Positions 7,591-27,563 of a DNA stretch of 64,000 bases are shown piece by piece. A program made the position numbers and the translations under genes. Under the pieces are notes generated by a model. The model searched no databases, had not been told where the DNA came from, and was given only the letters and a program-made list of their open reading frames with translations. Source of the stretch: Firmicutes bacterium HGW-Firmicutes-15. Its GTDB lineage: Bacteria; Bacillota; Syntrophomonadia; Syntrophomonadales; Syntrophomonadaceae. Location of the stretch: the NCBI GenBank assembly GCA_002840245.1, contig PHAA01000013.1:1-64000 (forward strand). The letters run 5' to 3'. Numbering within the stretch: position 1 is the stretch's first letter; every line of letters begins with the position of its first letter.

Positions 7591-7709
7591 GACCGAGCAA
7601 AAGAAGTGAAGAGCAAGGCATTCAAGATGCCCGTGATTGAGGCGTACATAAGGTACGTTGATTGAACGGGATGATTGAATAACGCAGCTATTCGCTTATT
7701 TTGACGATC
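7591..7709. mobile_element. Miniature inverted-repeat element (copy 1)
   Basis: This 119-bp noncoding unit has imperfect terminal inverted repeats: left 7591-7614 and right 7687-7709. An inner short hairpin is built on GAGGCGTAC/GTACGT, followed by AATAACGCAGC. The same plan is seen at 11247-11377, 55142-55307 and 59877-60050. It has no coding capacity. Copies of GGAGGCTGCTGCCTCC lie on both sides (7544-7559 and 7713-7728). Confidence 0.5.
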
Positions 7710-15695: not shown

Positions 15696-15735
15696 AAACA
15701 GGCGGGTGATGGAAAAAACCATCATCCACCTGTTT
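15696..15735. terminator. Bidirectional terminator between DUF1015 and CoA-transferase genes
   Basis: A 17-nt arm (15696-15712) pairs with 15719-15735 with two mismatches around an A6 loop. It ends with TTT on the plus side and with TTTGTTTC on the minus side. It serves two convergent genes. Confidence 0.75.
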
Positions 15736-15790
15736 ATTGCTTATCAGAGTCCTTTAAGCAAGCTGGTGGCTATAGCTGGATATAATAGAA

Positions 15791-17137
15791 TTAAGCTCTC
15801 AATTTATTAGTTTTAACCCAGATATTATTTTTCTCTGCCTCTTTGATCAGTTCATCGCGTAGGTCGGGATGAGCTATACTAATGAGGGCTTCGGCTCTTT
15901 CCCAAGTACTCTTGGCCTTTAACAGCACTATGCCATACTCGGTGACTACATAGGCATTGAGGCTGCGGGGTACAGTCACAGTCGCACCCGGGGTCAGGGT
16001 AGGCATGATACGGGATTTTAAGTTGCCCTCTTTGTCCTTGAAGGTGGAGGTGAGGCAGATCAGTCCCTTGGCGCCTTTGGATTTGTAGGAGCCATAAATA
16101 TAATCCAGCTGGCCGCCGGTTCCGGAGATATGCCTTACTCCCGAGGATTCCGAAGCCACCTGGCCATAGAGATCGACCTCGACCGCGTTATTGATACAGA
16201 TCATATTGTCTTGCAGGCATATGATGTCGGGATCATTGGTGTAATCCACCGGGAAGCTGGCGCAGACCGGATTGCTGTCCAAGAAGTTATAAAGCTTGTT
16301 GGTGCCCATGGCAAAGGTATAAACCATTTTACCTTTATCCAATTGTTTGCGAAGTCCAGTAATACGTCCTGCTTCATACATATCAACAAATGAATCCACC
16401 AGCATCTCGGTGTGAACCCCCAGATCTTTTAGATCGGATTGGGCGATCATGGCACCCACTGCATTCGGCATGGCGCCTATCCCCAACTGCAGACAGTCCC
16501 CGTCCTTGATCTGCTCCAAGATGATGCTGGCAATTTTTTTGTCGACATCGGATATGGGCAGTTCGGGCAGATTTATCAACTGTTTGTTGTCGCCCTCTAC
16601 GAAATAGTCGATTTCCGATACGTGCAAGGTCTCGCGCAGTCCTCCCAGACACCGGGGGACCGATTCATTTATTTCGGCGATTACTATTTTCGAAGCATCA
16701 CAAAAAGCATGGGTAAATGAATTGGAGGTGCCTAGGTTTACGAATCCGTGCTTATCTGGGGGCGTTACTTTGATGAGGGCTACGTCGGGCTGGACATAAC
16801 CGCGATCATAGAAACTGGGCACTTCATGATAGGTTATAGAGATATAGTTGCACATGCCCTTGTCATGCAGCTTGCGGCTGGCGCCGCTGAAATGATAGTC
16901 GTTATAGATGAAGTGTTTTCTTTCTGGATCATTTACTACCGTTTGGGGTGGAAAAGGACAGGTGGTGGTTCTTATATTCACCCCTTCTAGTTCATCTGAC
17001 CTTTTGGCCAGGGCCGCATCTAAAACATGGGAGTTCATCACGAATTCACCATAATGGACCAGATCGCCTGATTTAACTACTTTGACTGCTTCATCAGCAG
17101 AGACGAATTTGCTTTTGTAATTATCCATATAACTCAT
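15791..17137 (-). CDS. Acetyl-CoA hydrolase/transferase family CoA-transferase
   Basis: The protein has 448 residues; the start ATG at 17135-17137 lies behind GAAGGAGCG. The family runs acetyl-CoA hydrolase N- and C-terminal domains. The catalytic glutamate is in GVHTEMLVDSFVDMYEAG and is followed by the usual GTGGQLDYIYG oxyanion region. Length and motifs fit the 4-hydroxybutyrate or butyrate:acetate CoA-transferase branch, which exchanges CoA between acyl-CoA and acetate. Beside beta-oxidation genes it plausibly activates butyrate or recycles CoA. It lies about 400 nt downstream of a sigma-54 promoter and a dedicated EBP gene, with a small ORF between. The substrate pair is inferred. Confidence 0.92.
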   Translation of the reverse strand: MSYMDNYKSKFVSADEAVKVVKSGDLVHYGEFVMNSHVLDAALAKRSDELEGVNIRTTTCPFPPQTVVNDPERKHFIYNDYHFSGASRKLHDKGMCNYISITYHEVPSFYDRGYVQPDVALIKVTPPDKHGFVNLGTSNSFTHAFCDASKIVIAEINESVPRCLGGLRETLHVSEIDYFVEGDNKQLINLPELPISDVDKKIASIILEQIKDGDCLQLGIGAMPNAVGAMIAQSDLKDLGVHTEMLVDSFVDMYEAGRITGLRKQLDKGKMVYTFAMGTNKLYNFLDSNPVCASFPVDYTNDPDIICLQDNMICINNAVEVDLYGQVASESSGVRHISGTGGQLDYIYGSYKSKGAKGLICLTSTFKDKEGNLKSRIMPTLTPGATVTVPRSLNAYVVTEYGIVLLKAKSTWERAEALISIAHPDLRDELIKEAEKNNIWVKTNKLRA

Positions 17138-17286
17138 ATTTATCGCTCCTTCATTTTAAAATAGGGAGTGTTAGGTATGCTTAAATATTTCTGTATCCAC
17201 TGGGAAGTCATGGCTGGGTTGCCGCCATATTTTCTTCCTGGTCCTCTGTTAAAGAAAGACACAGTTTGGAGAACTACCCAAGTTAT

Positions 17287-17403
17287 TCAAGCTTGTCCAA
17301 AAAGAGTTTTAACTAAACCTAGCATTATGTCACAGGACACGGAGAGTTTATAGCCGTTGTCCGGGGTGAAGCTATCAACCGCAGTAAAAAACGGTTTGTT
17401 CAT
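17287..17403 (-). CDS. Small ORF (38 aa) between sigma-54 promoter and CoA-transferase
   Basis: The frame is MNKPFFTAVDSFTPD..., 38 codons from ATG 17401-17403 to TGA at 17287. Its upstream AGAGGAGGTTTA...ACGATG matches the initiation region of the crotonase gene at 23404, so it sits exactly where crotonase sits in the paralogous block. No homology is recognised. It may be a real small protein, a leader peptide, or a relic of the replaced operon. Confidence 0.35.
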   Translation of the reverse strand: MNKPFFTAVDSFTPDNGYKLSVSCDIMLGLVKTLFGQA

Positions 17404-17546
17404 CGTAACTACCGTAAACCTCCTCTCATATTTGAATAGTATTTAACCTTGTGCGGAGAACAATATCACCTCCTTGGATTAAAGATAGGAAAGGTGATTT
17501 GCCATTATATGCAAATCGCTCCTTGTATAGCACAGATTTTCTTCCT
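17404..17546 (-). promoter_or_regulatory. 5' leader with perfect Shine-Dalgarno, block 1
   Basis: In RNA sense the leader carries AAGGAGGTGA (17466-17475), a full anti-16S match about 70 nt after the predicted start. ATCACCT (17492-17498) can pair with AGGTGAT (17465-17471) and hide that site. The frame after it stops within about eight codons. The same AAGGAGGTGA occurs at the equivalent place in block 2 (23460-23469). Confidence 0.45.
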
Positions 17547-17556
17547 AATTTATTAC

Positions 17557-17573
17557 AGCAATATTCATGCCAA
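17557..17573 (-). promoter_or_regulatory. Sigma-54 (-24/-12) promoter, block 1
   Basis: On the minus strand TTGGCATGAATATTGCT fits the -24/-12 consensus TGGCAY-N5-TTGCW with exact GG and GC placement. It lies just downstream of the first EBP gene and drives the small ORF and CoA-transferase. Only two positions differ from the block 2 promoter, and those lie in the spacer. Confidence 0.85.
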
Positions 17574-17605
17574 TTATAAGGAAAGTAGTTAAAGTAGGGC
17601 GAAAA

Positions 17606-17619
17606 GGCGGTATATATGG
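17606..17619 (-). promoter_or_regulatory. Putative activator site, block 1 (diverged)
   Basis: GGCGGTATATATGG (plus-strand reading) lies 33 bp upstream of the -24 box. The palindrome of block 2 (23595-23628) starts 32 bp from its own -24 box and begins GGGCGGTATATCCA. The partner arm here is degenerate. Confidence 0.4.
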
Positions 17620-17788
17620 TTTTAGTACATGCCACTACAAGGTGACTTTGATACAAAATACATATAATATTTCCTAAATTGCTTAGAAGCGAATTGAGAA
17701 ATCGTTATAGAATAGGCAGAATGCCCAATGGATCTCTTCTCAAAATAGGAGGCAGAATTCCCGAAACCGACAGCTCAATGATGGAATA

Positions 17789-20251
17789 CTATTCCAAGCC
17801 ATATTTAGATAGTTTACGGTATAAGGCAGAGCTGTGTATTCCTAATGATTTTGCTGCTTGAACCTTGTGGCCAGAGGTTTTTGCCAGAGCCTTAATAATA
17901 ATTTGCTTTTCCAGGGTTTCAATAGTCTCTGTCAGGTTGATATTCTCTTCATCCGGACTGTTAACCTCAGAATTGGCATCTTCTAGAAGTGAGGGGAAAT
18001 GCTTAATGCCTAGATAATCCTCGTGGTTCATATCGGCCAGATTAATGGCCCTTTCAAGCAGATTTTCGAGTTCACGTACATTGCCCGGCCATGAGTAATT
18101 TTGTAGTAGTTTTCGTACCTGTTCGGAAATGCCAGTGATAGCCGTTTTTAGATTACAGTTAATCCTATCGATTAAAGCTTCGGCGATGAGGAGCACATCA
18201 ATCTGCCTTTTTCTCAGGGGGGGAATGCTCAGTCTTACTACATTCAAGCGGTAATAGAGATCCTGGCGGAATGTCTGGTTGTCGACCATTTCCTCTAAAT
18301 TACGGTTGGTGGCGGCTATGACTCTTACATTGACGGAAATAGGTGCGGTTCCCCCGATCCGTTCTACAGTTCTTTCTTGCAATACTGTGAGCATTTTGGT
18401 CTGCATAGCTAGAGGCATATCTCCTATTTCATCCAGGAAAATGGTTCCTCCGCAGGCTAGTTCAAATTTGCCCTGCTTACCACCTTTTCGGGCACCCGTA
18501 AAGGATCCTTCTTCGTAGCCAAACAATTCGGAATCTAACAGGGTGTCGGGTAAAGCAGCGCAGTTTATCCTGATGAAAGGACCGGAGTTTCTCTTGCTGG
18601 CATTATGAATGGCTTGAGCAAATAACTCTTTGCCTGTGCCACTTTCGCCGGTTATTAGGAGTGTGCTGGTGGTATGGGAAACATGTTCAGCCATTGTTTT
18701 AATCGCTAAAAACTCGGTGTCCTGACCGATAAGGTCGGGAAACCGCCATTTGGCTCTATAAAAATTGCGCACTTCTTCTTTATAAATGTTTAATTCTTTC
18801 TCAGTATCCTGTAATTTTTTAACCAGAATCTTAGCGCCAGACATATCCAGGAATAGGCTTTTCTCTATTGCACCTACGATATCGCCGTCTTTGATAATAG
18901 GTAGGCGGGTCACGATAGTTTCTCGTCCTTTGATCATGAAAATATCAGCTTTGTCAATACGCTTAGTTTTCAAGATCATAGGGAGTTCGGAACTGGGAGT
19001 TATATCAAGTATATATTTACCTACGACATCCTCTTTCTTCATCTCCAGGATGTCAAGATAGGTTTGATTCATCGTGGTAATATAACCATCTTTATCCACA
19101 ATAACATAAACCATATAAGGGCTTTCAATCAGCCCTTCTAGTATGGAAGCAAATTCTTTCTCCGTCTCTTGCATTTTTTTCATTAGAATTTTGGCTCCGG
19201 ACATATCCAGGAAAAGGCTTTTACCAATGGCTCCAATAATCTCACCGTCTTTGACAATAGGTAATCGTGTTACGATTGTGTCACGCCCTTTTATGGGCCA
19301 TATGTCAGCTTTGTCTATGCGGCCAGTTCTAAGAACCTCAGGAAGTTCAGAAGTCGGAGTGATATCCAGTATGTGTTTCCCAACTACATCTTCCTTCTTA
19401 AACCCCAGAATATCCAAGTAAGTCTGATTCATGGCAGTAATATAACCTTCTTTATCAACAATAACATATACCATGTAGGGGCTTTCGATTAGACCTTCCA
19501 GGATGGTGCTGAATTCTTTTTCGGTTTCCTGTAGCTTTTGCATTAAAATCTTAGCTCCGGACATATCCAGAAAAAGACTTTTGGCAATGGCGCCTACTAT
19601 TTGCCCGTTTTTAATAATGGGTATTCGAGTTACGATCATCTCGTGTCCTTTGATAGACCAGATTTCCGCACTGTCAATCCGACCCGTTTTAAGTATTTCA
19701 ATAAGACCGGAATTTGGTATTATATCAAGTACGTATTTTCCGATAACATCTTCCTTTTTCATTTCCATGATGTCTAGGTAGGTTTGGTTCATTGCCGTAA
19801 TGAAGCCATTGCTATCAACTGACGCATAAAGCATATATGGACTCTCTACTAGGGCTTCAAAAAGGGCAGTGAATTCTTTTTCTCTTTCCTGCAGTCTTTT
19901 CATAAAAATCTTGGCTCCGGACATGTCCAGAGAAAGACTTTGCCCAATCGCTCCTATTATCTTGCCATCCTTTATAATGGGTACACGGGTAACGATAGTA
20001 TCTTGATCTTTAATAGGCCAAATATCGGCTTTGTCAACGCGGCCAGTTTCAAGTACTTCTGGAAGTTGTGAATGGGGAAGAATTTCAAGAACGTGCTTGC
20101 CAATTACATCAGCTTTCGTTAATTCTAGGGAATCAAGAAAGGTTTGGTTCATGAGGGTTATATGGCCTTCCTTATTAACGATCACTAAGGCCATATAAGG
20201 ACTTTCAATTAGTGCTTCAAAAGTTGCATTGAATTCGTAGTCAGAAACCAT
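17789..20251 (-). CDS. Sigma-54-dependent activator with four tandem PAS domains (EBP 1)
   Basis: The protein has 820 residues from the ATG at 20249-20251, behind AAAGGAGGTCG. Four PAS units of about 120 residues run from about 5 to 485; each opens E(S)PYM and ends LDMSGAKI(L/F). In DNA this is a 360-nt periodicity. The AAA+ sigma-54 domain follows: Walker A GESGTGKE, loop GSFTGA (Ser instead of the common Ala), LDEIGDMPLAMQ, and YYRLNVVRL. The C-terminus is a Fis-type HTH (KVQAAKSLGIHSSALYRKL). No membrane segment is present, so a cytosolic ligand is likely, perhaps an acyl-CoA or redox cue. It lies just upstream of a sigma-54 promoter feeding the CoA-transferase gene. Confidence 0.93.
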   Translation of the reverse strand: MVSDYEFNATFEALIESPYMALVIVNKEGHITLMNQTFLDSLELTKADVIGKHVLEILPHSQLPEVLETGRVDKADIWPIKDQDTIVTRVPIIKDGKIIGAIGQSLSLDMSGAKIFMKRLQEREKEFTALFEALVESPYMLYASVDSNGFITAMNQTYLDIMEMKKEDVIGKYVLDIIPNSGLIEILKTGRIDSAEIWSIKGHEMIVTRIPIIKNGQIVGAIAKSLFLDMSGAKILMQKLQETEKEFSTILEGLIESPYMVYVIVDKEGYITAMNQTYLDILGFKKEDVVGKHILDITPTSELPEVLRTGRIDKADIWPIKGRDTIVTRLPIVKDGEIIGAIGKSLFLDMSGAKILMKKMQETEKEFASILEGLIESPYMVYVIVDKDGYITTMNQTYLDILEMKKEDVVGKYILDITPSSELPMILKTKRIDKADIFMIKGRETIVTRLPIIKDGDIVGAIEKSLFLDMSGAKILVKKLQDTEKELNIYKEEVRNFYRAKWRFPDLIGQDTEFLAIKTMAEHVSHTTSTLLITGESGTGKELFAQAIHNASKRNSGPFIRINCAALPDTLLDSELFGYEEGSFTGARKGGKQGKFELACGGTIFLDEIGDMPLAMQTKMLTVLQERTVERIGGTAPISVNVRVIAATNRNLEEMVDNQTFRQDLYYRLNVVRLSIPPLRKRQIDVLLIAEALIDRINCNLKTAITGISEQVRKLLQNYSWPGNVRELENLLERAINLADMNHEDYLGIKHFPSLLEDANSEVNSPDEENINLTETIETLEKQIIIKALAKTSGHKVQAAKSLGIHSSALYRKLSKYGLE

Positions 20252-20308
20252 CGAAATTTGAACGACCTCCTTTAGCGCACCTTATATTGTAAGTATTAAT
20301 AATATTTT

Positions 20309-20336
20309 ATCATATCATTTCCGATTGCTATTGTAA
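20309..20336 (-). promoter_or_regulatory. Sigma-A-type promoter of EBP 1
   Basis: On the minus strand TTACAA (20331-20336) is followed after 16 nt by TATGAT (20309-20314). The same two hexamers with the same spacing precede EBP 2 (26328-26355), so the activator genes themselves use the housekeeping sigma factor. Confidence 0.55.
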
Positions 20337-20391
20337 GAATTAGTACAAAGTGTTTGGAAATGTATAAGCTTCGTGCTCTGTGCGTATACAC

Positions 20392-20413
20392 TGCCAGGCG
20401 GCGGTAGAAAAGT
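20392..20413 (+). pseudogene. 22-nt remnant of copZ left by duplication
   Basis: These 22 bases are identical to copZ codons at 26627-26648 (encoding part of CQAAVEKS). They stand upstream of EBP 1 just as copZ stands upstream of EBP 2, but about 240 bp closer. It is a junction scar, not a gene. Confidence 0.75.
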
Positions 20414-20417
20414 AGGT

Positions 20418-20441
20418 GGGTGATGGCACTAGCCATCACCC
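20418..20441 (-). terminator. Terminator of the crotonase-thiolase-hbd operon
   Basis: GGGTGATGGC (20418-20427), loop ACTA, GCCATCACCC (20432-20441) form a perfect 10-bp stem about 46 bp after the hbd stop. On the minus strand a CTACTTTTCT stretch follows. Confidence 0.65.
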
Positions 20442-20486
20442 ATCTTCAACCTCTTATATTTTCAATTACCATCCATTTCATTAATG

Positions 20487-21341
20487 CTATTTTTTATAAT
20501 CAAAGAAGCCTTCTCCGGTCTTAATGCCCAGTTTACCAGCACGCACCATTTTAACCAGAAGTGGGCAAGGACGATATTTAGGATCACCAAATTCTCTATG
20601 CAGGGTCTGCATAACAGCTAGGACTATATCCAATCCAATCATATCCGATAAAGCAAGCGGACCCATGGGATGTCCAGCTCCAAATTTCATGGAAGTATCA
20701 ACATCGACAGGATTAGCTACGCCTTCCATAACTGCATATATACCCTCGTTTAGCATTGGAACTAAAAGCCGGTTAACAACGAAACCGGGAGCTTCATTAA
20801 TTTCAACCGGAGCTTTGCCCATATCTTCGGTTAGTTTCTTAATAAGATCATAGGTATCTTGGCTGGTAGAAGATCCCTTGATTATTTCAACTAACTTCAT
20901 GGCCGGTACTGGGTTGAAAAAATGCATGCCTATCATTTTGTCTGCTCTATTAGTGGCTGCACCGATTTCGGTAATACTGAGAGCTGAAGTATTCGAAGCT
21001 AGGATACACTCGGGTTTGCAAATGGCATCTAATTCTTTAAAAATAGTTTTCTTTATTTCCATGATTTCAACTGCGGCTTCGATTACCAGATCAACATCTT
21101 TTAAAGCGGTCATGTCAATAGTACCTGTGATTCTTCCTAATATCTCGGCTTTTTCGTCTTCAGCCAGTTTGCCTTTGGAAACCAGCTTATCAAGATTCTT
21201 AGTAATTCCAGCGATACCTTTGTCAACAAATTCCTGTTTGATATCTCGTAAAACTACGTTAATTCCCTTTTGAGCAGCAACCTGAACGATACCAGCACCC
21301 ATCGTGCCGGCTCCAAGAACTGCAATTTTATTAATTGCCAA
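20487..21341 (-). CDS. hbd: 3-hydroxybutyryl-CoA dehydrogenase
   Basis: The protein has 284 residues from a TTG at 21339-21341, behind AAGGAGG with 8-nt spacing; a longer frame would add 13 residues ahead of the Rossmann fold. The NAD site is [16 protein letters not shown]. The catalytic His is in [15 protein letters not shown], preceded by [10 protein letters not shown]. The C-terminal domain shows PGFVVNRLL and [16 protein letters not shown]. It oxidises 3-hydroxybutyryl-CoA to acetoacetyl-CoA with NAD in butyrate beta-oxidation, or the reverse. It is the last gene of a three-gene operon. Confidence 0.95.
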
Positions 21342-21389
21342 TAGAAAATCCTCCTTGTATTTAGTAATACGTTCTTCCATTAGGTGTGT

Positions 21390-22595
21390 TTAGATATCTC
21401 TGGTCCACAAGGAAGCCATCGCCGGACCGCCGCCCACACAGAGAGAAGCGCCACCCAGGGTCAATCCCAGGCGCTCCATTTCATAATACATAGATACGAT
21501 TATGCGCAGGGCCGTAGCTCCCACCGGGTGACCCAGGCCAATTCCGGAACCATTGTGATTAACCTTGGAAAGATCCATTTCAATGCCGAAGTCTTCCTTT
21601 AGCATTCTGCCCACCCCGATAAATTGCGCAGCAAATGCTTCGTTGATTTCCCAGTAATCAATATCTTCATATTTTAAGCCAGCCTGTTTAAGAGCCTTGG
21701 GAATTGCTACTGCAGGGCCAACTCCCATAATGGTTGGATCAACACCCTCAGCTACAATATTGATCATCTTCAACAGGGGTTTAATTCCGAGTTCTAAAGC
21801 CTTTTCTTTGGACATTACGATAACGGCTGCAGCAGCGTCGTTAATACCGGAAGCATTGGCAGCTGTGACAACCCCTTCTTTTTTGAAAGCTGGAGGCAAT
21901 TTGGCCATCGATTCAACACTGGCATCGGGAATCATATGTTCGTCATTTTCGAAAAGTTTTACACCCTTCTTGGATTTAAGCTCCACTGGAACGATTTCCC
22001 GTTTAAATATTCCGTTTTGCATAGCAGCAGTGGCTTTTTGATGGCTGGCCAGCGCTAAGGCATCGCATTCCTCGCGGGTAATGCCATACTTGGCGGCTAC
22101 GTTTTCAGCGGTAAGGCCCATGTGACCAGGAACCAGTTTGTCAACCAGTCCGTCGTAAAGCAAGGAATCTTCAATGCTTCCGGGGCCCATGCGATATCCC
22201 ATTCTAGCTTTATCCATCATATAAGGTGCATTGGTCATACTTTCCGCGCCTATTACCAGACCGATGTCGATCTTGCCCAGCGCAATATGATCGCATATTA
22301 TTTCCAGGGCTCTCATGCCAGATGCGCAGTTCTGATTAACGTTACAGGCGTTACTTCTAACCGGAAGTCCCAATGCCATAGCCACCTGTCGGGAAGGCAG
22401 CGATCCTTGAAAATGAGGATAAATCTGGCCCAGAACCAGTTCATCAATGGCATCGGCGGGGATACCGGCTCTTTTAATAGCTTCTTTGCCTGCGGTTATG
22501 GCCAGTTCTTTGACCGACACGTCTTTCAAGGTTCCCATAAACCTGGCTATTGGGGTTCTACATGCACTTACAATTACTACTTCTTTGGTTTCCAC
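21390..22595 (-). CDS. thlA: Acetyl-CoA acetyltransferase (thiolase)
   Basis: The protein has 401 residues, starting at METKEVVIVSACRTPIARF. The nucleophilic Cys is in VNQNCASGMRAL. The second-site residues are His in GSGIGLGHPVGATALR and Cys in GASLCVGGGPA, so all three catalytic positions are intact. It cleaves acetoacetyl-CoA with CoA into two acetyl-CoA. It lies 26 bp after crotonase and about 48 bp before hbd, and shares their sigma-54 promoter. Confidence 0.95.
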   Translation of the reverse strand: METKEVVIVSACRTPIARFMGTLKDVSVKELAITAGKEAIKRAGIPADAIDELVLGQIYPHFQGSLPSRQVAMALGLPVRSNACNVNQNCASGMRALEIICDHIALGKIDIGLVIGAESMTNAPYMMDKARMGYRMGPGSIEDSLLYDGLVDKLVPGHMGLTAENVAAKYGITREECDALALASHQKATAAMQNGIFKREIVPVELKSKKGVKLFENDEHMIPDASVESMAKLPPAFKKEGVVTAANASGINDAAAAVIVMSKEKALELGIKPLLKMINIVAEGVDPTIMGVGPAVAIPKALKQAGLKYEDIDYWEINEAFAAQFIGVGRMLKEDFGIEMDLSKVNHNGSGIGLGHPVGATALRIIVSMYYEMERLGLTLGGASLCVGGGPAMASLWTRDI

Positions 22596-22621
22596 TATAT
22601 ATACCTCCTCATAAATCTATA

Positions 22622-23404
22622 TTATTTGCATTTAAAATCAGCTTTCCGTTTCTCAACGAATGCCGCCATACCTTCTTTCTGATCTTCAGTCGCAAAGCAC
22701 AGTCCGAATAAGTCAGCTTCAATCGCCATAGCGGTATCAATATCTGCCTGCATACCTCGGGTTACCTGATTCTTACTTAATCGAACTGCCAAGGGGGCTT
22801 TGCCGGATATTATCTTAGCCAGCTTTTTTGCTTCAGCCATTAATGACTCCGCAGGATATACATGATTTACGAGACCTACTCGATAGGCTTCATCGGCATT
22901 AATATTAATAGCAGAATAGATTAATTCTTTAGCTCTCCCTTCACCAATTAGGCGGGGTAATCGCTGGGTTCCACCATAACCGGGAGTGATCCCTAAACCT
23001 ACCTCAGGTTGTCCAAACAGAGCCTTATCAGAAGCCAGCCTTATATCGCAAGCCATGGAGAGTTCACAGCCGCCGCCCAGCGCGAAGCCATTAACCGCTG
23101 CAATAACAGGTTTGTCCATTGTTTCGATAAGCCTAAAAACTTCTTGACCTAGGATAGCGAAGGCGCGCGCTTGCATGGCCGGAAGTTTTTGCATGTAGGC
23201 TATATCAGCGCCAGCCACAAAGGCTTTGTTACCTACCCCGGTAATGATTAACACATCTACATTCGGATCTTCAGCAATTGCCAGCACGGCATTTTTTATA
23301 TCTAATAGGGTATCTGCATTAAGCGCATTAAGCGCATTAGGTCTATTGATAGATAGTAATGCTGTCCGGTCTTCTATTTCCAGTAATATGTTTTCATAAG
23401 CCAT
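22622..23404 (-). CDS. crt: Enoyl-CoA hydratase / crotonase
   Basis: The protein has 260 residues, starting MAYENILLEIEDRTALLSIN. The oxyanion-hole segments are KAFVAGADIAYM and NGFALGGGCELSMACDIR, with the catalytic Glu in GGGCELSM and the second Glu in FGQPEVGLGITPGYGGTQR. It hydrates crotonyl-CoA to 3-hydroxybutyryl-CoA. It is the first gene of the operon. The ribosome site GAGGAGGAGG ends 14 nt before ATG, unusually far, and a perfect AAGGAGGTGA lies further upstream in the leader. Confidence 0.95.
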   Translation of the reverse strand: MAYENILLEIEDRTALLSINRPNALNALNADTLLDIKNAVLAIAEDPNVDVLIITGVGNKAFVAGADIAYMQKLPAMQARAFAILGQEVFRLIETMDKPVIAAVNGFALGGGCELSMACDIRLASDKALFGQPEVGLGITPGYGGTQRLPRLIGEGRAKELIYSAININADEAYRVGLVNHVYPAESLMAEAKKLAKIISGKAPLAVRLSKNQVTRGMQADIDTAMAIEADLFGLCFATEDQKEGMAAFVEKRKADFKCK

Positions 23405-23546
23405 CGTTTTTAGTTAAACCTCCTCCTCTAGTAGATAAGTACTTATCTGATAATGATCCTCACCTCCTTAGATAACGGACTGCAAGCCGTTTTAGATTAT
23501 ATGCAGATCACTGGTAGAATAGTATATGGTTATATACAATGAATAG
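23405..23546 (-). promoter_or_regulatory. 5' leader with perfect Shine-Dalgarno, block 2
   Basis: The leader carries AAGGAGGTGA (23460-23469) about 66 nt after the predicted start, followed by a frame that stops after a few codons. Upstream is the AACGG/CCGTT hairpin, and between the two ribosome sites is the 16-nt palindrome AGATAAGTACTTATCT. The layout matches the block 1 leader. Confidence 0.45.
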
Positions 23547-23563
23547 AGCAAGATTCATGCCAA
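23547..23563 (-). promoter_or_regulatory. Sigma-54 (-24/-12) promoter, block 2
   Basis: On the minus strand TTGGCATGAATCTTGCT gives TGGCAT and TTGCT with exact sigma-54 spacing. It lies between EBP 2 and crotonase and would start a leader of about 130 nt. Confidence 0.88.
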
Positions 23564-23594
23564 CTATCAGAATATGGCGGTAATTAAGATGAAA

Positions 23595-23628
23595 GGGCGG
23601 TATATCCAGTTTGTTGGATATACCGCCC
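23595..23628. promoter_or_regulatory. 14-bp perfect palindrome, likely enhancer site for EBP
   Basis: GGGCGGTATATCCA (23595-23608), 6-nt spacer, TGGATATACCGCCC (23615-23628). Its centre is about 76 bp upstream of the predicted start, a usual distance for an EBP binding site. It could also terminate EBP 2 transcription, as it lies downstream of that gene. Confidence 0.65.
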
Positions 23629-23783
23629 CAAAGTGATTTGATGTAAGTAAATATACATTTTATTCAAAATAGGATAGATTCGAAATGATTGTCCCTTGTA
23701 AGGTTAGGATGATGCTGAATAGAAAGCACTTGCCCAAAATAGGAGACCGCTTTTCCAAAAAAGGAGACTTAATGCCCAGCAAA

Positions 23784-26249
23784 TTATTCTAACCCATACT
23801 TGGAGATTTTACGATATAATGCTGAGCTGTGAATCCCCAGCATCTTTGCGGTTTGTACCTTGTTCCCTGCGGTTTTTGCCAGAGCTTGAATTATCAATTG
23901 CTTTTCCAGGTTTTCCATGGCTTCGGGCATATTCATACTATTTACGCTTTGGGTTTGACTAACAGCGGAATCAGCCTCTTCAACCAATGAAGGGAAATGC
24001 TTAACAGTTAAATAATCTTCATGGTTCATATCAGCCAGATTCACGGCTCTTTCCAATAGATTCTCCAGTTCACGTATATTGCCCGGCCATGAATAATTTT
24101 GCAGCAGTTCACATGCCTGCTCGGATATGCCAATTATACAGGTTTTTAGATTCTTGTTAATCCTATACATCAAGTCATTGGTGATAAGTAGTACATCAGT
24201 CTGTCTATTTCGCAAAGGTGGAATACTTAGTCTTACTACATTTAAACGGTAATAGAGATCCTGGCGAAATTCCTGCTTACTGACCATTTCCTCCAAATTC
24301 CGGTTGGTGGCTGCTATGATCCTTACATTGACGAGGATAGGTATAGTTCCACCGATCCGTTCTACGGTTCGTTCCTGTAATATGGTGAGAATTTTTGTCT
24401 GCATAGCCAGTGGCATATCGCCGATTTCATCCAAGAAAATGGTGCCGCTTTGGGCCAATTCGAACTTACCCTTTTTGCCGCCTTTTCTAGCTCCGGTAAA
24501 GGCACCATCTTCATACCCAAACAACTCGGATTCCAGCAGGTTGTCTGGTAAAGCTGCACAGTTAATACGGATAAAGGGCCCGGATTTTCTTTGACTGTCA
24601 TTATGAATGGCCTGGGCAAACAGTTCTTTGCCGGTACCACTTTCACCAGTTATCAGCAGAGTACTGGTGGTATGGGATACATGTTGGGCCATTGATTTAA
24701 CTGTTAGGAATTCAGAACTATTACCGATCAGGTCAGAAAAATGCCATTTGGCTCGGTAAAATTTGCATATTTCATCTCTATAAACATTTAATTCTTTCTC
24801 GGTATCCTGAAGCTTTTTTACGAGGATCTTAGCGCCTGACATATCCAGGAAGAGGCTTTTGCCGATGGCACCCACAATTTCTCCGTCTTTGATAATGGGT
24901 AAGCGGGTTACAATGGTTTCACGTCCTTTTATTATATAAATATCCGCTTTATCAATCCGACCAGTTTTTAGGACTTCGGGAAGCTCGGAAGTTGGAGTTA
25001 TATCCAAGATATACTTTCCTATAACATCTTCCTTTTTCATTTCCAGAATATCTATATAGGTCTGGTTCATCGTTGTGATATAACCATCTTTATCTACGAT
25101 AACAAAAACCATATAAGGGCTTTCAATCAAGCCTTCCAGAATTAATGCAAACTCTTTTTCTGTCTCCTGCATTTTCTTCATCAGGATCTTAGCACCGGAC
25201 ATATCCAGGAAGAGACTCTTGCCAATGGCACCTACAATTTCATTATCTTTGATGATAGGTAATCTGGTTACGATGGTGTCGCGTCCTTTTATAGGCCATA
25301 TATCTGCCTTGTCAATGCGGCCGGTTTTTAATATTTCGGGAAGCTCTGAGGTAGGGGTTATGTCTAATATATATTTGCCAACTACATCTTCCTTGTTCAT
25401 TCCTAAGATATCTAGGTAAGTCTGATTCATAGCGGTAATATAGCCATCTTTGTCAACAATAACATAGACCATGTAGGGACTTTCGATTAGACCTTCCAGG
25501 ATCTTGGCAAAATCTTTTTCGGTTTCCCGAAGCTTTTGCATTAAAACTTTGGCCCCGGACATATCCAAGAAAAGACTTTTAGCAATGGCCCCAATTATTC
25601 GGCCGTTTTTTATGATGGGCAGCCGAGTTACGATCATCTCGTGCCCTTCTATGGACCAGATGTCTGCATTATCAATTCGGCCCGTCTTTAATACTTCAAT
25701 AAGTCCGCAATTGGGGGTTATTTCAAGTATATATTTGCCTATTACGTCTTCGATTTTAACTTTTAGGATGTCCAAGTAGGTCTGGTTCATTGCTGTAATG
25801 AAGCCATTGCTATCCACGGCAACATAGAGCATATAAGGACTTTCAACAAGGGCCTCAAAAAGGGTAGTGAATTCTTTTTCTCTTTCATGTAGTCTTTTCA
25901 TAAAAATCTTGGCTCCTGACATGTCCAGAGAAAGACTTTGCCCAATCGCTCCTATTATCTTGCCATCCTTAATAATAGGGAACCGAGTAACGATAGTGTC
26001 CTGGTCTTTTATTGGCCAAATATCGGCTTTGTCAACCCGGCCTGTCTTAAGTATCTCAGGAAGTTTGGAATGGGGAAGGATTTCAAGAACGTGTTTGCCC
26101 AATACATCATTTTTCGTTAATTCCAATGAATCTAGGAAGGTCTGATTCATAAGGGTTATATTGCCTTCCTTATTAACGATAACCAACGCCATATAAGGGC
26201 TTTCAATTAGCGCTTCGAAAGTTGCATTAAATTCGTAGTCGGTAACCAT
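23784..26249 (-). CDS. Sigma-54-dependent activator with four tandem PAS domains (EBP 2)
   Basis: The protein has 821 residues and is closely similar to EBP 1 along its whole length. Four PAS units of about 120 residues are followed by AAA+ (GESGTGKE, canonical GAFTGA loop, LDEIGDMPLAMQ) and a Fis-type HTH (KVQTAKMLGIHSSALYRKI). It sits directly upstream, on the same strand, of a sigma-54 promoter and the crotonase-thiolase-hbd operon, so it is the likely activator of butyrate beta-oxidation. The ligand is unknown. Variation between copies is higher in PAS 2 and the acidic linker before the HTH than elsewhere. Confidence 0.93.
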   Translation of the reverse strand: MVTDYEFNATFEALIESPYMALVIVNKEGNITLMNQTFLDSLELTKNDVLGKHVLEILPHSKLPEILKTGRVDKADIWPIKDQDTIVTRFPIIKDGKIIGAIGQSLSLDMSGAKIFMKRLHEREKEFTTLFEALVESPYMLYVAVDSNGFITAMNQTYLDILKVKIEDVIGKYILEITPNCGLIEVLKTGRIDNADIWSIEGHEMIVTRLPIIKNGRIIGAIAKSLFLDMSGAKVLMQKLRETEKDFAKILEGLIESPYMVYVIVDKDGYITAMNQTYLDILGMNKEDVVGKYILDITPTSELPEILKTGRIDKADIWPIKGRDTIVTRLPIIKDNEIVGAIGKSLFLDMSGAKILMKKMQETEKEFALILEGLIESPYMVFVIVDKDGYITTMNQTYIDILEMKKEDVIGKYILDITPTSELPEVLKTGRIDKADIYIIKGRETIVTRLPIIKDGEIVGAIGKSLFLDMSGAKILVKKLQDTEKELNVYRDEICKFYRAKWHFSDLIGNSSEFLTVKSMAQHVSHTTSTLLITGESGTGKELFAQAIHNDSQRKSGPFIRINCAALPDNLLESELFGYEDGAFTGARKGGKKGKFELAQSGTIFLDEIGDMPLAMQTKILTILQERTVERIGGTIPILVNVRIIAATNRNLEEMVSKQEFRQDLYYRLNVVRLSIPPLRNRQTDVLLITNDLMYRINKNLKTCIIGISEQACELLQNYSWPGNIRELENLLERAVNLADMNHEDYLTVKHFPSLVEEADSAVSQTQSVNSMNMPEAMENLEKQLIIQALAKTAGNKVQTAKMLGIHSSALYRKISKYGLE

Positions 26250-26581
26250 CGAAATTTGAATGACCTCCTTTAGGACTTGTTTTTCTAGAAGAAAAGAACC
26301 GATTATATTGTAAATTAGTATTATTTTATCATATCATTTCCGATTGTTATTGTAAGAATTAGTGCAAAGTGTAGAGATTCGGGTATTAACCTTTCTACAG
26401 TAACTTACATCAATCGTTAGGAAATATTATATTGAACATAATTTGGCTGTATTAAAATATCTGGGTATGAGAAAATAATGGTAAGTCTTGTTACGGAAAA
26501 AGTCTGAAGGATTGCTTGATACAGTTAAAACGTGGCAAGCCCTAAGTATACAACCAATTATTTTAAAAGGAGGTTTATTAT
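26250..26581. other. 332-bp divergent region between EBP 2 and copZ
   Basis: The left part holds the EBP 2 ribosome site and promoter. TTGAAC at 26432-26437 with TAAAAT 15 nt later could be the copZ promoter, and AAAAGGAGG lies just before the copZ ATG. No further gene or clear structure is seen. Confidence 0.4.
26328..26355 (-). promoter_or_regulatory. Sigma-A-type promoter of EBP 2
   Basis: On the minus strand TTACAA (26350-26355), 16-nt spacer, TATGAT (26328-26333), in a stretch nearly identical to the EBP 1 upstream region. Confidence 0.55.
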
Positions 26582-26791
26582 ATGCAGACTGAAAAAATAA
26601 AGATTTCAGGTATGTCCTGCGGACATTGCCAGGCGGCGGTAGAAAAGTCCATTAAGTCATTAAATGGTATAGTTGGCCTGGAAGTATTACTGAAAGAAGG
26701 TCAGGCTCAAGTATCCTTTGATGAAAGTAAAATTTCGCTCAAGGATATCCGGGCTAGCATTGAAGAGGCAGGCTATTCAGTAGACAATTAG
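26582..26791 (+). CDS. copZ: CopZ-like heavy-metal chaperone (HMA domain)
   Basis: The protein has 69 residues from ATG 26582 with AAAAGGAGG 8 nt upstream. It is a single ferredoxin-like HMA domain with the metal loop GMSCGHCQAAVEKS (CxxC). It binds Cu(I) or a similar ion and passes it to P-type ATPases. No ATPase gene is adjacent. Part of this gene has been copied to 20392-20413 in the block 1 duplication scar. Confidence 0.92.
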   Translation: MQTEKIKISGMSCGHCQAAVEKSIKSLNGIVGLEVLLKEGQAQVSFDESKISLKDIRASIEEAGYSVDN

Positions 26792-26882
26792 GTTCTGGGA
26801 GAGGAAAAAAGGGGTTTCTTTTGCAAACTGTGTCCATAAGAGGTCAAGTTTTTTGATGGGGTTTAACTGGTGGAGGTGGAGA

Positions 26883-27563
26883 ATGAAGAGGATTATCGAG
26901 GTTTGCCCGCATATATACCAAGTAGGTGGCAACAGCTTATCTGATTCACAGGACTGCTGTGTTTATCTTGTAGAGGGAGATAGTGAATCAGTATTAATTG
27001 ATACCGGGGCTGGGAAGAGCGTTTCTTTAATCGTTGATAATATGAAACACAGTGGCATAGATACTGACGCTATTAAATATATTATTGCCACTCACGGTCA
27101 TATTGACCACATCGGAGGACTGAAGGCTATGCAGGAGCGCTTGCAAGCTCAGGTTGTAGCCCATCGCTTGGAACTACCTGCTATTCAGGAAGGTTTGGCA
27201 CATCTGACAGCAGCGAGTTGGTATGGAGTTAATTACCAGAAGGTAACAGTTGATAGGGTATTAAATGGGGTGCAAGAAACTTTACAGGCAGGCAATATGA
27301 AACTTGTATGTATGCATACACCTGGACATACCCAGGGTGGCATCTCAGTATATGTTGATACGGGCGGTTTGCGGGTGCTTTTTGGACAGGATATTCATGG
27401 CCCTTTTAATCGGGAATGGGGTTCAGACTTAAAGCAGTGGCGGATTTCTATGCAGGCGCTAGTGAATCTAAAAGCGGATATTCTTTGTGAGGGTCATTTT
27501 GGAATTTACCAGCCTGCTGTAGCTGTGCGTGATTATATTGAGGGTTACCTAAAGCGGAACTAG
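26883..27563 (+). CDS. MBL-fold metallo-hydrolase
   Basis: The protein has 226 residues from ATG 26883 behind GGAGGTGGAG; an ATG at 26853 is a less likely alternative. Metal-binding motifs are THGHIDHIGG (HxHxDH), HTPGHTQGG, the bridging Asp in LFGQDIHG, and a late His in CEGHFGIY, as in glyoxalase II-like hydrolases. It is probably a cytosolic thioester or ester hydrolase; substrate unknown. It is followed by a strong bidirectional terminator. Confidence 0.9.
   Translation: MKRIIEVCPHIYQVGGNSLSDSQDCCVYLVEGDSESVLIDTGAGKSVSLIVDNMKHSGIDTDAIKYIIATHGHIDHIGGLKAMQERLQAQVVAHRLELPAIQEGLAHLTAASWYGVNYQKVTVDRVLNGVQETLQAGNMKLVCMHTPGHTQGGISVYVDTGGLRVLFGQDIHGPFNREWGSDLKQWRISMQALVNLKADILCEGHFGIYQPAVAVRDYIEGYLKRN

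Follow-up and report, generated by a model that had tools for sequence, protein, structure and literature searches.

Two reduced copies of one operon

Analysis of the window, that is, the whole stretch of 64,000 nucleotides considered here, revealed two shrunken copies, by all sequence indications in tandem, of a fatty-acid-degradation gene cluster that a relative carries once. We consider it very likely that a whole operon was duplicated in tandem, from its terminator to a point inside copZ, and that gene losses were then sorted between the two blocks. Block 1 reads T1-CoA-transferase-thl relict-crt relict-EBP1-copZ scrap, and block 2 reads T2-hbd-thl-crt-EBP2-copZ, T1 and T2 being terminator copies and EBP1 and EBP2 sigma54 activators. 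The nearest relative found was Syntrophomonas sp. STD2_151 (GenBank:JAQUUV010000004.1; contig C171, 35,428 bases), hereafter G006, the one relative with full synteny among the seven genomes of the genus searched. In the orientation of the window, the order in G006 is DUF1015 (+), terminator, acd (-), hbd (-), CoA-transferase (-), thl (-), crt (-), EBP (-), copZ (+), MBL (+), and lysA (-), and that in the window is DUF1015 (+), T1, CoA-transferase (-), EBP1 (-), scrap, T2, hbd (-), thl (-), crt (-), EBP2 (-), copZ (+), MBL (+), and lysA (-). One G006 cluster therefore faces two reduced window copies, collinear with it in their remaining parts, and all copies lie in direct orientation, as predicted by tandem duplication. 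A first-pass annotation of this DNA had proposed an alignment with related strains; G006 was the one relative of shared synteny available for it.

On the minus strand, block 1 has kept the CoA-transferase/hydrolase gene (15791-17137), and block 2 has kept hbd (3-hydroxyacyl-CoA dehydrogenase, 20487-21347), thl (thiolase, 21390-22595), and crt (enoyl-CoA hydratase, 22622-23404). The intact copZ, a copper-chaperone gene encoding a heavy-metal-associated domain protein, lies on the plus strand (26582-26791).

The copZ scrap at the right end of block 1

According to the first-pass annotation, a 22-nt run upstream of EBP1 is identical to copZ; letter-for-letter comparison of 20392-20413 with copZ 26627-26648 bore this out at all 22 positions. 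The match widens to 25 of 26 bases, with one mismatch, between 20388-20413 (plus strand), the copZ scrap that forms the right end of block 1, and 26623-26648 (plus strand), the source segment within copZ, in the region that encodes CHCQAAVEKS. We looked for the same 22 bases at many sites of the genome, as expected of a repeat; with up to three mismatches allowed, the 22-mer was present at two sites only in the window's own genome (3,465,716 bases, 84 contigs), which rules out a common dispersed repeat, and the reversed 22-mer, used as a control, had no match in the same 3,465,716 bases. Local alignment of 20354-20486 with copZ scored 47, a value reached by none of 2,000 dinucleotide shuffles (maximum, 27), in agreement with the earlier statement that a match of this length at the expected place is very unlikely by chance; the best score among 298 other plus-strand segments of the window was 29 and that of the best minus-strand segment was 27. 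With two sites in 3.47 Mb and no shuffle attaining the score, the probability that the match is a chance resemblance or a common repeat is negligible.

Terminators and the join between the blocks

A terminator-like hairpin follows hbd at the left edge of block 2 (T2, minus strand, 20411-20442, with the hairpin proper at 20417-20442) and is homologous to the G006 terminator (7639-7670). Its sister copy, T1 (15700-15731), is situated beside DUF1015 at the left edge of block 1. The single terminator of G006 matched T2 with a score of 45 and T1 with a score of 43, neither of which was reached in 2,000 shuffles. Since the terminator scan of the window as a whole gave 8 terminator-like sites versus 6.0 expected, the evidence for T2 is this homology and not the scan.

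T2 adjoins the scrap directly: the part of T2 that matches G006 begins at 20411 and so takes in the AGT with which the scrap ends. This triplet is common to copZ and the G006 terminator flank, an overlap of 3 bp being no more than chance gives. The right end of the duplicated unit thus abuts a homologue of the terminator at its left end, and the alignments support a true join of truncated copZ to T2 at about 20413/20414, by which copZ would have been fused to the duplicate of the operon-end terminator. The scrap had previously been taken to mark the duplication edge; it is indeed a copZ remnant at the edge, and the hbd terminator mentioned beside it proves to be a copy of the unit's left edge, its homologue in G006 being the one terminator next to DUF1015.

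The RNA of the T2 region (20375-20460) was predicted to fold with -34.8 kcal/mol (z -4.3). No Rfam family matched at gathering scores in 17100-26700, which speaks against a known structured RNA in this interval. As to the terminal repeats that an insertion element or transposon would leave around a copied unit, no inverted repeats of at least 20 nt (12-base exact seed) were found in 17700-27000.

Relicts of lost genes in block 1

Two gene remnants, both on the minus strand, lie between the CoA-transferase gene and EBP1 in operon order. One is the 3' end of thl (17178-17226; 36 of 49 bases identical to intact thl; score 31, reached by none of 2,000 shuffles), at the position that corresponds to the thl 3' end in G006, next to the CoA-transferase gene. 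The other, a crt relict (17290-17406; 85 of 117 bases identical to intact crt; score 74, again reached by none of 2,000 shuffles), was also found by protein search (E 3.2e-5) and has a TGA stop codon inside. Beside T1, a frame ending in ATSLLKGL* (15741-15770, minus strand) resembles the end of the G006 acyl-CoA dehydrogenase, AANLLKGLR*, and is only suggestive of an acd C-terminus relict, the support being weak: its score was reached by 72 of 5,000 shuffles under a strict scheme, by 1 of 5,000 under a loose one, and by 6 of 1,000 against the whole gene, and a protein search with acd did not report 15741-15770. Following T2, 20443-20489 resembled G006 acd weakly (18 of 1,000 shuffles reached the score) and was left unused. 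Protein searches reported neither an hbd relict in block 1 nor a CoA-transferase relict in block 2.

These relicts bear on the extent of the duplicated unit. The longest similarity between the blocks (17504-20353 vs 23496-26372) is centred on the EBP, as would be expected if the EBP, its upstream region, and part of copZ alone had been copied and inserted after hbd as a dispersed single-gene duplication. However, such a copy would bring neither the crt and thl relicts of block 1 in operon order nor a second operon-end terminator. Duplication of the EBP alone is largely ruled out by these features, and we regard it as highly improbable. The first-pass annotation was right that the EBP is duplicated, but the relicts and the second terminator indicate a unit larger than the EBP, comprising the adjoining operon, the EBP, and the 5' part of copZ.

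EBP upstream regions and a probable deletion in block 1

The upstream regions of the two EBPs are alike up to CAAAGTGT (20353 and 26372, respectively), with 49 of 51 bases identical between 20303-20353 and 26322-26372, as had been noted before; the direct jump from there to the scrap, claimed at the same time, did not hold, because 34 bases separate CAAAGTGT from the copZ scrap (38 from the exact 22-mer). The conserved segment upstream of EBP1 (20303-20353, minus strand) contains a promoter-like CTTACA-17-TATGAT site, for which conservation is what counts, since the promoter scan of the window found 20 sites versus 19.0 expected.

The rest of the EBP1 leader (20354-20387) aligned to G006 with a score reached by 5 of 2,000 simple shuffles, the EBP1 leader being alignable to G006 up to 20380; it has diverged from the leader of EBP2, with whose own upstream region it gave no alignment above chance (p 0.88). 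Judged from this alignment, the 34 bases that precede the scrap represent old EBP leader whose counterpart can still be recognised in G006, and a foreign insert between CAAAGTGT and the scrap was ruled out on the same ground. When the EBP upstream regions were aligned simply as two sequences, gaps broke up the scrap, and this alignment was set aside for the scrap.

An ACA triplet is common to the leader (26407-26409) and copZ (26623-26625). Aligning on this triplet gives a deletion of 216 bp, and we infer breakpoints at the two ACA copies, with about 216 bp probably removed between them. The previous proposal of a deletion after duplication, between the EBP1 upstream region and the scrap, is thus retained, but not its size of about 240 bp or its start at CAAAGTGT.

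Two activators and two sigma54-type promoters

Both EBP1 (17789-20251) and EBP2 (23784-26249), on the minus strand, are PAS-rich and contain PF00158 (the AAA+ Sigma54_activat domain) and PF02954 (a Fis-type HTH) in addition to several PAS domains; PF00158 and PF02954 were the domains by which we recognised both as sigma54 activators. The GAFTGA motif is the EBP loop that contacts sigma54. EBP2 has GAFTGA, and EBP1 has GSFTGA in its place, being the sole one to do so among the 11 EBPs compared (the other 10 of 11 have GAFTGA). In both proteins there is a row of PAS repeats of about 120 residues, about 70% alike in DNA, and the matched extent of this PAS-repeat part varies among relatives.

The consensus of the sigma54 -24/-12 promoter is YTGGCAYGNNNNTTGCW. 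It occurs exactly twice in the window, on the minus strand at the two paralogous crt promoters, at 17557-17573 in block 1 (TTGGCATGAATATTGCT) and at 23547-23563 in block 2 (TTGGCATGAATCTTGCT), and none of 100 shuffles had two. With two mismatches allowed, 12 sites were found versus 9.4 expected; because these are close to chance, only the two exact sites carry weight. The crt leader, the ribosome-site region, and the sigma54 site of block 1 align with block 2 and with G006. It was also noticed that a 15-pair hairpin (23594-23629) lies between EBP2 and the crt promoter, its counterparts in block 1 and G006 being less regular by eye.

Taken as a sequence-based reading, one operon probably became two regulatable units, each with an EBP and a sigma54-type promoter. 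The result is likely to be two half-operons, the CoA-transferase gene with EBP1 and hbd-thl-crt with EBP2, each having a putative promoter of its own and an adjoining activator.

The cluster in other genomes of the genus

DNA from the EBP2 start to the copZ end was matched in three of the seven genomes of the genus, namely the window's own, G006, and G001, where the copZ part alone matched and no cluster adjoined it. The EBP1 upstream segment was matched in two of the seven, the window's own and G006 (at its single copy). Genomes G002, G003, and G005 have single EBPs near MBL with differing neighbours: in G003, thl adjoins DUF1015 and the CoA-transferase gene comes after thl, and in G002 and G005, thl and an EBP, but no hbd or crt match, were seen between DUF1015 and MBL. 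In G001 (L102, 3263-6246), DUF1015, copZ, and lysA are side by side without a cluster between DUF1015 and copZ, and the cluster would have been either lost in G001 or gained elsewhere. In G003 (L027, 2883-5075), about 1.5 kb lies between MBL and the EBP, and no copZ was matched there.

In trees of CoA-transferase and thl, the G006 copies group with C61-type paralogs of the window's genome (support 91 and 70-99, respectively), and these trees therefore do not date the duplication. This grouping of the two genes (G006, L053, 11664-14256) suggests replacement by recombination inside the cluster. Between the window and G006, crt (dS 1.48), thl (2.58), and the CoA-transferase gene (saturated) are far more diverged than the flanks. 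Because of this excess divergence and the C61-type grouping, recombination has probably reshuffled the cluster, and G006 would be an imperfect picture of the ancestor, whose gene order it may not wholly preserve.

Age of the duplication and preservation of the scrap

Synonymous divergence was obtained for 12 window-G006 gene comparisons. The dS values were 1.31 for EBP1-EBP2, 1.20 for EBP1-G006, and 0.85 for EBP2-G006, compared with 0.35-0.74 between the window and G006 for copZ and genes outside the cluster; hbd gave 0.39, and another EBP pair (C61 of the window's genome vs C1 of G006) gave 0.87. Because the EBP values exceed those outside the cluster, the duplication would seem to predate the split from G006 or to be of about the same age. 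The EBP trees were built from 11 of 18 open frames (L030, L007, L008, L013, L015, and both L032 frames were left out, being truncated, shorter, or more distant). In the DNA tree, it is EBP2 that groups with G006 (bootstrap 77), and in the protein tree, it is EBP1 (73); in an AU test of the DNA topologies, EBP2+G006 had p 0.75, EBP1+G006 0.31, and EBP1+EBP2 0.054, values that do not settle whether the duplication came before or after G006.

The dS of 1.31 between the EBPs would also be explained if block 1 or EBP1 had been acquired by recombination from another Syntrophomonas with a diverged copy, an origin partly compatible with tandem duplication and in keeping with the mixed ancestry of the cluster genes between genomes seen in the CoA-transferase and thl trees. 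Yet it is the window's own copZ that the scrap resembles most, with one difference versus three each to the copZ of G006 and of G001 (one of the agreeing bases lies in AGT and possibly came from the terminator side), and besides the window's own genome, only G006, with its single copy, matches the EBP1 upstream segment among the seven genomes. We therefore consider such an acquisition rather unlikely and keep to tandem duplication of the resident operon.

The scrap is better preserved (25 of 26 bases) than the crt and thl relicts (121 of 166; Fisher p 0.005), and no 26-column window of the crt relict exceeds 20 matches (92 windows). Its one mismatch to the window's copZ is the base present in the copZ of G006 and G001, and the change therefore probably occurred in the window's copZ. 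For neutral DNA as old as the duplication appears to be, the scrap is too well preserved, a point that counts against the proposed history; constraint, repair at a later time, or simple luck over a length of 26 bases may each account for it. A short templated copy of copZ made by repair or conversion after the duplication, which is compatible with tandem blocks, would account for a scrap closer to copZ than the other block 1 relicts are to their genes, and closer to the window's copZ than is the copZ of G006 (22 of 26). However, the scrap keeps the order and orientation of an original edge and abuts the duplicated terminator, and its mismatch looks like an older state that was kept. A later copy is thus quite improbable, and the scrap is best taken as a remnant of the duplication itself.

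As to constraint, the scrap may be a working hybrid: the complement of GAAAAGT would supply the U-run of the hbd terminator and insulate the hbd operon from EBP1, so that the scrap was kept nearly unchanged while the relicts decayed, and this would have helped to make lasting the division of a single sigma54 operon between two units under separate activation, one with EBP1 and its altered GSFTGA loop and the other with EBP2. The short U-run on the hbd transcript is indeed the complement of the scrap, but in the predicted fold these U's are base-paired as part of an outer stem, so that a simple U-run role becomes less likely, and we hold this function to be doubtful.

Proposed history

The observed homologies, relicts, order, and orientation would fit the following course. 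The ancestor would have had one cluster between DUF1015 and copZ, with a terminator, acd, hbd, CoA-transferase, thl, and crt, all leftward, a sigma54-type promoter in front of crt, a leftward EBP upstream of this promoter, and then copZ in the opposite direction. The segment from the terminator to a point inside copZ would have been duplicated in tandem, so that copZ (...GAAAAGT) came to adjoin the second terminator, with AGT as a possible 3-bp overlap at the level of chance. Losses would then have removed hbd, most of thl and crt, and acd (possibly leaving a trace) from block 1, which kept the CoA-transferase gene and EBP1, and would have removed acd and the CoA-transferase gene from block 2, which kept hbd-thl-crt and EBP2. 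Block 1 would also have lost about 216 bp, from one ACA triplet to another, and with them the copZ start and its upstream region, so that 26 copZ bases were left. In the resulting present state, each half-operon would have its own sigma54-type promoter and neighbouring activator, with the scrap between the hbd terminator and the EBP1 leader.

Meaning and comparison with known systems

The processes involved, namely duplication, reciprocal loss, and joining at short homology, are all of known kinds, and the locus is a well-preserved, ordinary genome fossil. It offers a readable case in which a metabolic operon doubled along with its adjoining activator, and each copy then kept only some of the genes; the join is still in place, as are relicts of two lost genes. 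For a genus known to have many beta-oxidation paralogs, it illustrates one concrete step by which these and the regulators may arise. The preserved scrap also raises a small testable question, whether an accidental sequence can become part of a terminator. A literature search for a report of this join of truncated copZ to a terminator found none, which is not a claim that none exists.

In the portions of a Salmonella survey that deal with duplication junctions, these are ascribed to short-homology (illegitimate) recombination, with the bases shared at the junction as the diagnostic (PMC3411829). As there, where duplications are among the events, a new junction here joins two places of the chromosome. 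That survey, by the same portions, screened for long microhomology with a cut-off of at least 11 bp for true duplications, shorter ones being beyond its reach (PMC3411829); in contrast, the AGT shared here is 3 bp, at the level of chance, and the join is old and eroded.

For Syntrophomonas wolfei, of the same genus, passages of a published study describe paralogous PAS/sigma-54 regulators as well as multiple beta-oxidation paralogs and their expression (PMC4324140); these passages concern paralogs and expression, whereas the window adds a duplication join and relicts. A further known system is the CrbR regulon of Clostridiales, for which the relevant sections describe sigma54-controlled crt-hbd-thl butyrate operons and PAS domains as common in EBPs of the order (PMC6615313). 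The likeness lies in a putative sigma54 promoter before a crt-hbd-thl operon and in PAS-bearing EBPs. The window differs in that its EBPs have a longer PAS row than the single or double PAS described in those sections, and in that operon and EBP appear to have been duplicated, with the operon genes divided between the two blocks.
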